Assembly (NCBI RefSeq): GCF_037996765.1
Contig: NZ_JBBNAD010000005.1
Coordinates: 528,001-592,000, forward strand
DNA from: Bdellovibrio sp. GT3
Lineage (GTDB): Bacteria > Bdellovibrionota > Bdellovibrionia > Bdellovibrionales > Bdellovibrionaceae
Length of the DNA: 64,000 bases
Direction of reading: 5' to 3'
The notes beneath the pieces are model-generated. The model did not search any database. It saw nothing but the letters and a program-made list of their open reading frames with translations, and was not told the origin of the DNA. Positions 51,982 through 58,369 of this stretch are shown piece after piece (the first letter of the stretch is position 1; the number at the start of each line of letters is the position of its first letter). The position numbers and the translations under genes were made by a program.

Positions 51982-52011
51982 AAAAAGGCTGGGTTCGTCC
52001 CGGCCTTTTTT
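51982..52011 (+). terminator. Terminator after atpE
   Basis: AAAAAGGCTGGG and CCCGGCCTTTTT form a GC-rich stem around TTCGT with a trailing T run. It closes the rightward atpI-atpB-atpE unit. Confidence 0.9.
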
Positions 52012-52099: not shown

Positions 52100-52141
52100 T
52101 AATATAAATCCAAAATTTCCTATTTACCTTGCCCTTGGGAC

Positions 52142-52165
52142 AACCTCGATAAATAACCTGAGGTT
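52142..52165. promoter_or_regulatory. Inverted repeat at merR-like gene start
   Basis: AACCTC (52142-52147) and GAGGTT (52160-52165) flank 12 bases just before the ATG at 52169, and the right arm overlaps the ribosome-binding site. It may be an autoregulatory operator or an RNA hairpin that hides the site. Confidence 0.5.
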
Positions 52166-52168
52166 AGG

Positions 52169-53173
52169 ATGAAGAACTGGCTTACCATTGGACAATTTGC
52201 GAATTCGATTGGCGTATCGGCAAAGGCATTACGTCTTTACGAAGACATGGGTTTGTTGAAATCCCATGTGCGTGGGGAAAATGGCTATCGCTATTACGAT
52301 GAAACACAATTGGATCTTGCTCGCCGTCTAAAGGAATTCAAAGATTTGGGTTTCACATTGGCGGAAATCAAAGCCCTTCTTGAGGCCGACGAGTCTTTAG
52401 ATTCCGATAAACTTGCGACTTCAATGCATGTACGCCTAAAAGATATTTCCCAACAGGCAGAACTTCTAAAATCCCAAAAAGAACAGATCGAATGCATCCT
52501 CTCCTCTTTACAAAAGAAACAAGAACCGCTTGAGGCGGAACAAAGGAGAGCGATCATGAGTTACTACGGTAAAGTTTCGATTCTGATTACAGGTTGCGAT
52601 GGGTTGGAAAAAACTGCGCATTTCGTGCATGAACATTTTAAAAGTGCTGGCCAGGATGTGCCGATCTTAATGTGGTCGGCTGGTATGGAGTTGCCAGAGG
52701 CAAAACCATATATTTTGATTCTACCTGAAAAGTACCTGGAACAAGAAGATGTTCTAAGAATTAATGCGGATGTGATTGTGATTAAAAGCGTCAGTATTCA
52801 TTCTGAAGAAATGGAAAAAACGTATTTGCGCTTGTTTGCCGAAGCAGGTCCGCATGTCACAACGGTGATTAATGCTGATGATCGTGCGTCGGTTTCGTTT
52901 GCGGGCCAAGAAAATGTACGTAAAGGTCGAATTTTCTACTTCACCAAAAATCGAGCTTTAGAGCCACAGATTCAAAACATTGGTGGCGTTATTAGTAGCG
53001 GCGAAGATCTAGAAATCTATGGATTCAATTTGAAAAATTCAAAAGTTGAAATGAAGTATAAAAAGATACTGGCGTTCGAAGACGAGATTGCACTTGTTTC
53101 TTCATTTGCGGCGGTGATGTCAGCAGGGCTTGAGAAAGAGAATCTTGTTGGAACACTTGCGCTGATCAAATAA
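52169..53173 (+). CDS. MerR-type regulator fused to a Mur-ligase-like domain
   Basis: 334 residues. Residues 1-75 are a clear MerR winged helix (LTIGQFANSIGVSAKALRLY, GYRYYDETQLD, FTLAEIKALL), followed by a helical linker to about 128. The remainder resembles the central domain of Mur ligases: ILITGCDGLEKTAHFVHEHF where ligases have a GTNGKT P-loop (here changed), DVIVIKSVSIH, TTVINADD, and SSFAAVMSAGLEKENLVGTL in place of the N-A-x-A-A-x-A segment. It lacks the N- and C-terminal Mur domains. It may sense a peptidoglycan precursor or nucleotide; this is inference. An internal AAGGAG lies seven bases before Met130, at the domain junction. It is monocistronic. Confidence 0.7.
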   Translation: MKNWLTIGQFANSIGVSAKALRLYEDMGLLKSHVRGENGYRYYDETQLDLARRLKEFKDLGFTLAEIKALLEADESLDSDKLATSMHVRLKDISQQAELLKSQKEQIECILSSLQKKQEPLEAEQRRAIMSYYGKVSILITGCDGLEKTAHFVHEHFKSAGQDVPILMWSAGMELPEAKPYILILPEKYLEQEDVLRINADVIVIKSVSIHSEEMEKTYLRLFAEAGPHVTTVINADDRASVSFAGQENVRKGRIFYFTKNRALEPQIQNIGGVISSGEDLEIYGFNLKNSKVEMKYKKILAFEDEIALVSSFAAVMSAGLEKENLVGTLALIK

Positions 53174-53176
53174 TAA

Positions 53177-53208
53177 AAAAAGGGCCGGTGTTTTCACCAG
53201 CCCTTTTC
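53177..53208 (+). terminator. Terminator after merR-like gene
   Basis: AAAGGGCCGGTG and CACCAGCCCTTT with loop TTTT form a stem with one internal mismatch, followed by T residues. Confidence 0.85.
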
Positions 53209-54692: not shown

Positions 54693-55649
54693 CTAGGCCC
54701 GCTGTCGAGCTAAATTAACAGCCCACTTAATTGCATCTATCATAGAGTTTGGGTTGGCCTTGTTTTTACCAAAAATATCCTTGGCAGTTCCGTGATCGAC
54801 ACTGGTTCTGACAAATGGAATGCCTAGGCTGATGTGGACGCCGCTGTCTTGTCCGTGAATCATTTTAAAAGGAATCAAACCCTGATCATGGTAAAGGCAT
54901 AGGTAGACAGAGTATTTCTTCCAGTTCTCCTTAAAGAAGGCGGCATCAGGAACCAAAGGCCCCACATATGGAATTCCTTTTTCGGCCGCAAAAGACTGTA
55001 GATTTGGGAAAACCATGAGTTCTTCAGAGCCAATCATCCCTTGCTCGCCAGAGTGAGGATTAAGGCCCAAGACTCCAATTGGTTTTGCGCGCTTGGATGG
55101 CGGCAGTGATTTACGTAAAGTATCCGCGCTCAATAAAGCCTCTGCAACGGTGCTAAAGCTTATGTGTTTTGTAATCTGAGAAACAGGCAAATGCCCCGTC
55201 GCCAAAACCACATTGAACTCGCTACCCGCAAAACCCATATGGACGGTTTTTGTTTTTGAAATGCGTTTTAGAATATCGGTGTGCCCAAGATCCTTAAATC
55301 CAGCATCCTTAATCAGAGTCTTTGAAAGTGGACCCGTTGCCATGCCCTGCAGTTGGTTTTTCATGCAGGCTTTAGCTGTCAGGTCCACCCAGTGTGCCGG
55401 GGTTAAATCCGAGCAAATATCTACAAGATAAGGACCTTCGATTTTCAGGGCTTCTTCGATGGTGTCGACTACGATGCGTTTAAACTTTTGATCAATTAAC
55501 TTCAGATATTTGGTGGAGGCGTTGTCGTTCCTCCACATGATGAATTGGATGTCTTTCAGAGGGCCCAGCTTATGAAGTGCCTTTGCGGTAACTTCGAAGC
55601 CAACGCCGTCATCATCCCCAGTGGTAAGCGCAATTCGAATTCTACTCAT
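54693..55649 (-). CDS. pdxA: 4-hydroxythreonine-4-phosphate dehydrogenase PdxA
   Basis: 318 residues. PdxA oxidises 4-phosphohydroxy-threonine in vitamin B6 synthesis. The family blocks are TGDDDGVGFEV (usually TGDPAGIGPE), GPLSKTLIKDAGFKDLGHTD with the metal His, LNPHSGEQGMIGSEE and YHDQGLIPFKM. The altered first loop is a notable divergence. It overlaps the end of the upstream SurA-like gene by eight bases, echoing the surA-pdxA pairing of E. coli. Confidence 0.92.
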   Translation of the reverse strand: MSRIRIALTTGDDDGVGFEVTAKALHKLGPLKDIQFIMWRNDNASTKYLKLIDQKFKRIVVDTIEEALKIEGPYLVDICSDLTPAHWVDLTAKACMKNQLQGMATGPLSKTLIKDAGFKDLGHTDILKRISKTKTVHMGFAGSEFNVVLATGHLPVSQITKHISFSTVAEALLSADTLRKSLPPSKRAKPIGVLGLNPHSGEQGMIGSEELMVFPNLQSFAAEKGIPYVGPLVPDAAFFKENWKKYSVYLCLYHDQGLIPFKMIHGQDSGVHISLGIPFVRTSVDHGTAKDIFGKNKANPNSMIDAIKWAVNLARQRA

Positions 55650-56586
55650 TGATTCTGATAAAGGCGTCGTCGCGTTTGTTTTGCAACCACAAGCGCAACT
55701 GACGTTTGAAGCTGGTTTCCATCAATTGAGCCTTGATGCGATCCTTTTGTTTTTCAAAATTTGGATCAGAAGTCAGCTTACGGCCGGTAAGTTTGGCAAT
55801 GTGATAACCCATGCGTGATTTGATAACACCAGTGGTTTCACCAACAGTCAGGCCAGCAATCGCTTCTTCAACCTCGGGCATGAATTCGCCGGACTTGAAT
55901 GTGCCAAGTGCACCACCGGAGGAGAAATTTGGATCTTCACTAAACTGCTGCGCCAGGGTTTCGAAGTTTTCACCGGAGCGCAATTTGGAAAGAACATTTT
56001 CGGCGCGTTTGAAAGCGGCCTCTGCCCCACCCTTTTTAGGGTTAAAGAAGATGTGAGATACCGAGAACTCATCTATTGAAGGCTTGTTCTTCGGATTGGA
56101 CTTCAGATATTCATTTAAAGCGTCTTCATCCGAGATGCGAAGCTTGGAAATGATCTCTGTATCCATCAGGTTTGATTTCTCAATCTTGTCTTTCAGGAAA
56201 ACCTTGTACTCATTAACATCAACGCCCTGGCCTTTAAGGATGTTTCCAAGCTCTGCTTCGCTTACGTTGTTTCTTTTGGCCATTTCTTTGAAGTCTTGTT
56301 CAACGCGGGCATTGGTTACGGACAAATTCAGACGTTTGATTTCGGAGAAAATAATCTTCTCGTTAATCAAGTAGTCCATTTGTGCTTTTCTATCTTTTTT
56401 CAATTCGTCGACAGATTTGCCATCCAACAAAGCATCATCCACCATACCAGGTTTGGAAATTCGACTTTGTAATTCCTTAAGGTCAGACTCAAGGATGATT
56501 TCGTTGTTCACGACAGCCAAAGTTTTTTCAATGACTTCGGCCTTAACTGGAGCTGCGACTAATAAAGAAAAAAGCAAACTAATCAT
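55642..56586 (-). CDS. SurA-like periplasmic peptidyl-prolyl isomerase
   Basis: 314 residues. A signal peptide (SLLFSLLVAAPVKA) precedes a SurA-type N-domain (TLAVVNNEIILESDLKELQ) and one parvulin domain (FSVSHIFFNPKKGGAE, EDPNFSSGGALGTFKSGEFM, GVIKSRMGYHIAKL). E. coli SurA has two parvulin domains and 428 residues, so this is a single-domain version. SurA escorts outer-membrane proteins. It overlaps pdxA and the upstream parvulin gene by eight bases each. Confidence 0.9.
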   Translation of the reverse strand: MISLLFSLLVAAPVKAEVIEKTLAVVNNEIILESDLKELQSRISKPGMVDDALLDGKSVDELKKDRKAQMDYLINEKIIFSEIKRLNLSVTNARVEQDFKEMAKRNNVSEAELGNILKGQGVDVNEYKVFLKDKIEKSNLMDTEIISKLRISDEDALNEYLKSNPKNKPSIDEFSVSHIFFNPKKGGAEAAFKRAENVLSKLRSGENFETLAQQFSEDPNFSSGGALGTFKSGEFMPEVEEAIAGLTVGETTGVIKSRMGYHIAKLTGRKLTSDPNFEKQKDRIKAQLMETSFKRQLRLWLQNKRDDAFIRINE

Positions 56587-57547
56587 TATCCCCTCGGGTA
56601 TCTACGGAAATGGAGTTCATCAATTCGTGATCCTTTAGGACTTTACTACTTCTGAGCTGAGCATCAAGCCATGCGACGTATTCTGCCTGCTCGCGTTGTG
56701 CTTTAAGAGCCCGAGTAATTTGCGGACGTACTTCTTCGAGCGTTAAAGTGGAGGCCGGAGCCTTTTTTTCTACACGAATCAGATGAATACCGAAGGGGCT
56801 TTTGATGGTTTGAGTACCGGCAGAGTTTGTAAACAGGCGGTCAAAGTAGTCCACAGTGCCTTTTTCAATCCAACCAACCACGCCGCCGGACTTTGCCTCT
56901 GGCGTAATGGAGAACTTCTTGGCAAGTTCAGCAAAATCTTTAGTTTTCAAATCTGTTTTAATGGCATCTGCTTTGGCTTCTTCATCAACGACGATCTGAC
57001 GGATATAAATGCGCTCTTTGCGTTTATACATATCCTTGTGATCATCGTAATAGCGTTTGATCTCGTCTTCGGCGATGGGCTTGGCCTTCTCATTGATTTT
57101 TTTGAAAACCTCACGCTCGATCAGGCTGTAGCGTAAGTCCTCGCGCCATTCCGCAAAAGATAAATTCTCTTGAGCCAGTGCGCGACGAAATGCAAGGTCA
57201 TCTGGATAGTTGGCGCGCAATTTATCCACTTCGGCATCAAGAGTGTTTTCTGACACGACGATTTTCTGAGCGCGTGCCCAATCCAAGGTTAAGCTTTTAA
57301 CCAGGAAGTCGCGTAAGATGTCTTCTTTGATTCTTTGGACGTTATTGGGGTCTTTGGCGGCAAGCGCATCAAAGTTTTTAAGTTTTCTAGCCAGTTGATT
57401 GGCGAACTCTTTGGCGGTTAATACGTGCTCATTTACCTTCTGAACAGGTTTCTTGGAAACCTTCTGGTAATTGGATGGGCAACCTGCCAAAAACACACTT
57501 GTTAAAATAAAAAGCCCCGCTTTAACGGGGCTCTTTAGGAATTTCAT
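56579..57547 (-). CDS. Parvulin-type peptidyl-prolyl isomerase lipoprotein
   Basis: 322 residues. The start MKFLKSPVKAGLFIL leads to a lipobox (VFLAGC, Cys23 region), so it is a PrsA-like lipoprotein. A SurA-like helical domain follows, then a parvulin domain (IYIRQIVVDEEAKAD, ITPEAKSGGVVGWIEKGTVD, SPFGIHLIRVEKK). It is the middle of three parvulin genes. An intrinsic-terminator-like hairpin sits inside its signal-peptide codons. Confidence 0.9.
   Translation of the reverse strand: MKFLKSPVKAGLFILTSVFLAGCPSNYQKVSKKPVQKVNEHVLTAKEFANQLARKLKNFDALAAKDPNNVQRIKEDILRDFLVKSLTLDWARAQKIVVSENTLDAEVDKLRANYPDDLAFRRALAQENLSFAEWREDLRYSLIEREVFKKINEKAKPIAEDEIKRYYDDHKDMYKRKERIYIRQIVVDEEAKADAIKTDLKTKDFAELAKKFSITPEAKSGGVVGWIEKGTVDYFDRLFTNSAGTQTIKSPFGIHLIRVEKKAPASTLTLEEVRPQITRALKAQREQAEYVAWLDAQLRSSKVLKDHELMNSISVDTRGDND
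57503..57532 (-). terminator. Intrinsic-terminator-like hairpin within coding sequence
   Basis: On the leftward transcript AGCCCCG TTAAAG CGGGGCT is followed by TTTTTATTTT. It lies within codons 6-15 of the parvulin lipoprotein gene, downstream of the first parvulin gene. Confidence 0.75.
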
Positions 57548-57559
57548 TAGAGTATTTCC

Positions 57560-58369
57560 TTATTTGATAAGGTTTTTGTTTTCTTTAATGGAGTAGGATT
57601 TTTTCAACTTCTCAAAGTACTCATTAAAGATCACTTTTCTTTTCTCATCGTATACTGCCGCTCTGATTTGGCGTTTATCCGCGTTTTCAAAGCTGCGACG
57701 ACCCGTTAGCTTAATGATGTGGAATCCATATGGAGATTCGATGAGCCCGTTAATTTCACCGACCTTCATGCCGATTGCCGCTTCATAGTATGCTGGAACG
57801 ATTGTAACACGAGACTGCCAGCCGATGTCACCACCCGCTTGCTTGGAAATCGCGTCGTCAGAATAAAGCTTAACCAGCTCTTCAAACGGACGCTTTGATT
57901 TTTTCACTTCAGCGTAGATTTCATCAGCACGCTTGCGAGCTTCCGCGATTTGCGCCGGAGTTGCACCCTGTTTAAACTCAATCAGGATGTTGCTTGTGCG
58001 GATTTCAGGATTGGTTTTATACCAGTCTTGCATTTCTTTGTCAGAGATCGTGATCTTTTGGATTTTTGGGCCCAATTCTTTTTCAAGAAGTGCTTTATAC
58101 ATAGCCTGGCGCAATTGTTCCTGAACAATTGGGTCTTTTTCCAGATTGCGCTTTTCAGCTTCCTGCAAGCCCACTTCGTAGCGAACCATGTCTTCAAGGA
58201 AAAGGTCTTTAGTTGGAGGGTTTGAAGTTTTAGACTTAATGTCATTGTACTTCTTGTTGAACTCGTCCAGGGTGATTGTTTTTTTACCCACTTGAGCCAA
58301 CACGTCAGAAGATTTTTGCGCGAACGCGGGTGCCGCGATGAGCATCAAGATGCTAATAACTAATTTCAT
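57560..58369 (-). CDS. Periplasmic parvulin-type peptidyl-prolyl isomerase
   Basis: 269 residues. A signal peptide (VISILMLIAAPAFAQ) is followed by a short helical region and a parvulin domain (EIRTSNILIEFKQGA, DDAISKQAGGDIGWQSRVTI, SPYGFHIIKLTGRR). It resembles PpiC/PrsA foldases. It is the first of the three-parvulin leftward cluster; the next gene begins 12 bases on. Confidence 0.92.
   Translation of the reverse strand: MKLVISILMLIAAPAFAQKSSDVLAQVGKKTITLDEFNKKYNDIKSKTSNPPTKDLFLEDMVRYEVGLQEAEKRNLEKDPIVQEQLRQAMYKALLEKELGPKIQKITISDKEMQDWYKTNPEIRTSNILIEFKQGATPAQIAEARKRADEIYAEVKKSKRPFEELVKLYSDDAISKQAGGDIGWQSRVTIVPAYYEAAIGMKVGEINGLIESPYGFHIIKLTGRRSFENADKRQIRAAVYDEKRKVIFNEYFEKLKKSYSIKENKNLIK

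Follow-up and report, generated by a model that had tools for sequence, protein, structure and literature searches.

The window analysed here is a stretch of 64,000 nucleotides from Bdellovibrio sp. GT3 (contig NZ_JBBNAD010000005.1, positions 528,001 to 592,000 of the forward strand). Positions 52169..53173 of its plus strand, on which the features below lie unless stated otherwise, encode a full-length fusion of a MerR-type regulator to a domain related to the peptidoglycan ligase MurD. The gene starts with ATG and specifies 334 amino acids; its neighbours are atpE on one side and a convergent phosphomannomutase-type gene on the other. A terminator-like hairpin 3' of atpE (51982..52010) sets it apart from the ATP synthase operon and another, on the minus strand (53177..53208), separates it from the mutase gene. 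Judged from these hairpins, the fusion gene is probably its own transcription unit. Residues 1-75 (52169..52393) form a MerR winged-helix DNA-binding domain, to which Pfam MerR_1 matches at residues 6-73 above its cut-off (E 1.3e-17), as an earlier note on this DNA had read from the open reading frame. An AlphaFold model of the fusion (mean predicted local distance difference test score, pLDDT, 81; predicted template modelling score, pTM, 0.59) contains this domain, followed by a predicted dimerisation helix (residues 79-115, 52403..52513) and an alpha/beta domain at residues 123-331. Searches of Pfam, NCBIfam and PDB sequences with the single fusion protein returned MerR only, and no metal-regulator family matched at its curated cut-off.

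The C-terminal part was assigned by profile comparison. The C-terminal domains of 18 fusion orthologs were aligned by hhalign with 16 MurD proteins at a probability of 99.8 (E 4e-29, 199 columns). The match covers MurD 103-322, which is the central domain alone, and leaves the outer MurD domains uncovered. Comparison with the organism's own MurD alone gave E 1.2e-18, while the controls, the reversed MurD sequence and five unrelated proteins of the window, gave E 0.087 or worse. A tblastn search of the own genome with the fusion protein found MurD, encoded after mraY, which is 45% identical to the fusion along residues 213-297 (E 9e-15). The same segment (GRIFYF..ALEPQI.NIGG) shows strong conservation among the fusions, too. 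Single E. coli MurC, MurD, MurE and MurF sequences were out of hhalign reach from the fusion domain, so that the link to MurD goes via the Bdellovibrio protein. Of the profile check proposed in the earlier note, the MurD profile carries the assignment; the Pfam model Mur_ligase_M (PF08245) stayed below its cut-off in every fusion member scanned. A fold search with the AlphaFold model returned MurC, MurD, MurE and MurF ligases and cyanophycin synthetase (CphA) with Z 17-20 over 160-190 residues; for MurD 3lk7 the values were Z 19.0 and a root-mean-square deviation of 3.1 over 179 residues. The reading of residues ~125-334 as a Mur-ligase central domain thus holds. Among the best fold matches was PAP11, the MurE-like subunit of the plastid-encoded RNA polymerase. 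There, too, a Mur-ligase fold is re-used in transcription, but PAP11 is an RNA polymerase part of MurE type and not a MerR regulator, and close common descent with the fusion is not implied. When the central domains were placed in a tree, the 18 fusion copies together formed one clade (Shimodaira-Hasegawa-like approximate likelihood ratio test, SH-aLRT, 100); a branch supported at 94 joins them to the MurDs of Bdellovibrionales, away from Bacteriovoracia-type and other MurDs. This placement indicates descent from a MurD of the Bdellovibrionales lineage. By alignment, predicted fold and tree, the C-terminal domain (residues 133-331, 52565..53161) is the central domain of a Bdellovibrionales MurD, captured as a copy.

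The captured domain has lost the active site of the ligase. In a joint alignment with MurD, the altered P-loop ITGCDGLEKTA pointed out in the earlier note (52586..52618) coincides with Walker A and carries Leu in place of the Walker Lys; the Lys of GxxGK(T/S) is replaced by L, H or I in 18/18 orthologs. The position of the carbamylated catalytic Lys is occupied by Tyr (Tyr219) in 17/18 fusions, compared with Lys in 15/15 MurDs of Bdellovibrionales. The MurD loops that align with E. coli Gly138 and Asp183, the latter loop adjoining the catalytic His, are absent from all 18 fusions, and the His of the GxH motif is likewise gone in all 18. At the metal-contact position Glu157/158 the protein has Pro, with the conserved E187 one column away. 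The segment DVIVIKSVSIH, one of the blocks listed in the earlier note, aligns with the NVVFTNLAENH block of MurD and not with the Mg-binding Glu motif. The three-domain ligase layout is not present, as both the UDP-binding N-terminal domain and the C domain are absent. The fusion thus shares with MurD (UDP-MurNAc-L-Ala:D-Glu ligase) the fold of the central domain (PF08245), clear homology and Bdellovibrionales descent, but without the outer ligase domains, the Walker Lys, the carbamylated Lys and the substrate loops it would be a regulator and not an enzyme.

Despite these losses the domain is maintained. The ratio of nonsynonymous to synonymous substitution rates (dN/dS) in the Mur part is 0.04-0.05 against two relatives, of which one is near-saturated at synonymous sites and the other has a dS of about 1. 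E187, H229, K260 and the Tyr219 at the former catalytic Lys are invariant or nearly invariant among the fusions, and these newly conserved residues suggest a re-tooled pocket. Judged by its residues, the Mur-like domain of every one of the 18 orthologs is catalytically dead, yet it is under purifying selection. The earlier proposal of a non-catalytic Mur-ligase fold on a MerR module is borne out by these positions. One close relative (G022, fusion L248) differs strongly from the window copy: gyrA is 98.5% and the mutase 97% identical, but the fusion just 58%, with dN 0.44 in the Mur part and 0.09 in the MerR part, which could reflect either exchange or fast evolution. As an observation apart, Bacteriovoracia-type MurD-like ligases (L170, L171, L172) carry Arg where the Walker Lys would stand (CGSFGRTT, CGTHGRTS, CGSHGRTI), and a second MurD-like gene is present in some of these genomes.

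Upstream of the gene a MerR/CueR-like promoter is found (52123..52153), with the -35 element TTTACC (TTGACC in most orthologs), a 19-bp spacer and the -10-like GATAAA. The spacer contains the operator dyad TTGCCC-TTG-GGACAA (52129..52143), whose general form is a consensus across orthologs with different neighbours. CueR promoters follow the plan of TTGACC, a 19-bp spacer and a dyad. The fusion resembles the metal regulators CueR, MerR and ZntR in this plan and in its DNA-binding domain, and differs from them by its large enzyme-derived effector domain. The promoter lies 46-54 bp upstream of the start codon in 18/18 orthologs, including families with unrelated neighbours, and each has a 19-bp spacer with dyad, within the 19-20 bp that characterize MerR-family promoters. 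The common form is TTGACC, a 19-bp spacer with TTG(A/C)CC-nnn-GG(N)CAA and a poor -10. Ortholog promoters score 19-30 of 31, compared with a mean of 15 and a maximum of 20 for shuffled sequences.

Sequence patterns that allowed up to 3 mismatches, rather than a weight matrix, were used to look for further operators. In the own genome the 21-base pattern matched the gene's own site and two others, both with 3 mismatches, and no second promoter-placed match of the gene's own type was found. A wider pattern applied to 20 genomes gave one site before the fusion in each carrier; further matches were the promoter of a related MerR-DnaE fusion in two genomes and a few scattered 2-mismatch sites. The one of these scattered sites that recurs, TTGAGTCTGACCCTTGGTCAAACA, was dropped as a target because it lies inside a ribosomal protein S1-like coding region and is also present in genomes without the fusion. 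Since the only promoter-placed match in the own genome is the gene's own, the fusion most likely controls its own gene and hardly any other.

A second conserved signal is found inside the gene. At the junction of the helix and the Mur domain, AAAGGAGAGCNATC stands 5' of Met130, giving the arrangement AAAGGAGAGCGATC-ATG conserved at the nucleotide level. It includes the Shine-Dalgarno (SD) sequence AAAGGAG (52542..52548) within the codons CAA AGG AGA, and the full motif is found nowhere else in the window. Met130 is invariant (18/18). The codon for Arg126 is the rare AGG in 16 of the 17 orthologs that have Arg there (16/18 overall), and that for Arg127 is AGA in 15/16. Other conserved Arg positions use mixed codons, mostly CGN, so that AGG is the most conserved synonymous choice of the gene; its share of Arg codons in the window's open reading frames is 3.4%. 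Pairing of the internal site with the anti-SD reaches -8.7 to -9.1 kcal/mol in 14/18 orthologs and is stronger than at the main start in 16/18. Among 429 internal ATGs the own site (-8.7) falls within the best 0.23%, and its SD is unpaired in the predicted RNA fold. The plainest reading of the conserved rare codon, strong pairing and accessible SD is nucleotide-level selection for an internal ribosome-binding site. Such a site predicts a second product from Met130 (52556..53173), a free pseudo-Mur domain of 205 amino acids.

Intact fusions were found in 18 of the 369 genomes of the phylum, all within three families of the order, which answers the earlier call for homologues of the same architecture. 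A 19th genome (G192) has a broken copy (L052 and L056), with the MerR part on one contig and the Mur part, which contains a stop codon, opening another. A scan of a genome collection found full-length relatives in Bdellovibrionales only, Bdellovibrio sp. qaytius among them. A scan of genome contigs with the single fusion protein gave no match, and viral contigs gave short MerR-domain matches only and no fusion. In those members of the genus that have the gene, it sits between atpE and the phosphomannomutase gene. An empty site is seen in genome G012, where the matches to atpE and the mutase gene are about 70 bases apart. The neighbours differ outside the genus. The gene is missing from 14 of the 24 genus genomes searched and from most of the phylum, which argues against a core role in cell-wall regulation.

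Within the phylum, the closest MerR modules likewise carry pieces of essential machines. Fusions to a degenerate core of the DNA polymerase III alpha subunit DnaE, with the PHP part absent, occur in many Bdellovibrionota (L002 1438-3006; L054; L160-L164; L266-L270; Pfam DnaE 1e-14 to 6e-8). By alignment their catalytic Asp positions are lost, and AGG plus ATG are found at the same junction in 13/13 examined. Other modules carry the C-terminal domain of the DnaB helicase with Walker A kept (L273, L274 and L275 in f12 genomes; Pfam 1e-31 to 1e-37) or, in one genome, the Lon substrate-binding domain PF02190 (L055 1501-2586; 3e-24), the latter behind a TTGACC-type promoter. Promoters of this type precede most sister fusions, including most MerR-DnaE types. 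In a MerR tree calculated without the DnaB types, the MurD, DnaE and Lon types cluster with one short MerR and one stray row (support 96/80), and a constraint of these types to one clade was not rejected (approximately unbiased test, AU, p 0.41). A search with a profile that itself includes two DnaB types placed the DnaB types among the fusions. The group has another long member, L271 (genome G118), in whose C-terminal part Pfam names no domain.

A precedent for this combination of features is TipA of Streptomyces (TipAL/TipAS), which has an autoregulated promoter and two in-frame products, the predominant free effector domain trapping the ligand; for AlbA of Klebsiella two products are assumed by its authors (PMC7762955, PMC6078987). 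The fusion shares with both a MerR module, a coiled coil, a C-terminal effector domain and an own promoter. It differs in having a dead MurD domain in place of the alpha-helical drug-binding domain TipAS or AlbAS, and ligand binding and sequestration are only proposed here. The MurD homology and fold, the dead but selected domain, the promoter in 18/18 orthologs, the conserved internal start and this precedent together suggest that the gene is a minimal TipA-like autoregulatory system of two products, in which a retired MurD domain serves as sensor and sponge. We give this reading a probability of about 0.6. The full-length form would sit as a MerR dimer on its own promoter and switch it on once the C-terminal domain binds a ligand or partner. 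Initiation of translation at Met130 would yield the isolated pseudo-MurD domain, probably in excess. Activation of the promoter would then raise both forms, and the short form would hold the same ligand or partner. The making of both products, the binding-triggered switch and the sequestration by the short form are all inferred; candidates for the ligand are an inhibitor directed at MurD, a protein that partners MurD and a small molecule.

Several points weigh against this TipA-like reading. Both the second product and DNA binding are predictions from sequence, and conserved motifs need not be used. The internal SD is weak or altered in two divergent orthologs (L051 and L053), and the Lon-type sister L055 has no internal SD. 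The TipAS domain PF07739 has no match in the fusion at E up to 10. Were the ligand an inhibitor of the MurD active site, the loss of that site would be an argument against mimicry. Finally, the pattern search, with its limit of three mismatches, could have overlooked operators elsewhere that are weaker or of another kind.

The earlier note had proposed a sensor of cell-wall precursors: on binding of a UDP-MurNAc-peptide or of ATP to the Mur-like domain, the MerR part would adjust growth and septation genes. The fold is indeed that of a Mur-ligase central domain, and a re-tooled pocket could be built from the invariant E187, H229 and K260 together with Y219, which occupies the position of the catalytic Lys. 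However, residues of the ATP site, such as the Walker Lys, and the Gly138/Asp183 substrate loops are lost in 18/18 orthologs and the UDP-binding domain is missing, which makes sensing of ATP or UDP-MurNAc unlikely. That the pattern search found no matching promoter in the genome but the gene's own also poorly suits a regulator of cell wall or division, and the DnaE, DnaB and Lon sisters fall outside a cell-wall theme. We regard such a sensor as quite unlikely; the observation of the earlier note is thus confirmed and its interpretation is half right. Slightly better placed, although still unlikely, is a modulator of the real MurD, where the free pseudo-Mur domain would bind MurD or a partner of it and tune peptidoglycan synthesis while the MerR form holds its amount constant by feedback. 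Strong purifying selection and the conservation among fusions of the region nearest to the own MurD are in line with this, but a gene absent from so many genomes of its own genus and phylum is not.

A third possibility is an integrated decoy against proteins of phages or competitors, with captured fragments of MurD, DnaE, DnaB and Lon as bait and binding inducing more bait. Four unrelated essential machines on related MerR modules in one phylum, in accessory genes with mostly self-type promoters, would fit, as would the dead MurD and DnaE parts and the fast divergence of the Mur part in the relative with near-identical gyrA and mutase genes. On the other hand, we know of no attacker for most of the captured machines, the DnaB types retain Walker A, the fusion itself matches nothing in PADLOC beyond a generic MerR-like entry, and the immediate neighbours of the window copy show no linkage to defence genes. 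As an account of this gene the decoy is very unlikely. Least probable by far is a decaying fusion without present function. The lost catalytic residues and the broken copy in G192 might point that way, but decay is rejected because of the selection seen in the Mur part (dN/dS about 0.05), and promoter and internal SD are conserved over three families.

The TipA-like reading may extend beyond the MurD type. Bdellovibrionota could possess self-controlled bait regulators, MerR modules with retired copies of MurD, DnaE, DnaB or Lon that make a switch and free bait from one mRNA, so that attackers induce their own trap; this generalization is tentative, and we consider it possible rather than probable. 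The repeated capture of these four proteins by related MerR modules in one predator-rich phylum points to a shared pressure on the machines concerned. If true, the ligands could be compounds that inhibit wall synthesis, replication or proteolysis. The capture of a core enzyme followed by its death would then be a new route to the sensor of a transcription factor, and the TipA logic of switch and sponge from one gene would be carried from drug-specific helical domains to enzyme mimics. A literature search found no description of a MerR-Mur fusion, in agreement with the earlier note, which knew of no described regulator of this type. The layout is known from antibiotic-trapping systems; its use with a copied housekeeping enzyme is, as far as we found, undescribed, and the regulatory anatomy of own promoter and internal start is new to the same extent.

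Elsewhere in the window, for which a search of Rfam gave no match, three SurA/parvulin-like genes lie in a row on the minus strand (55642-58369).
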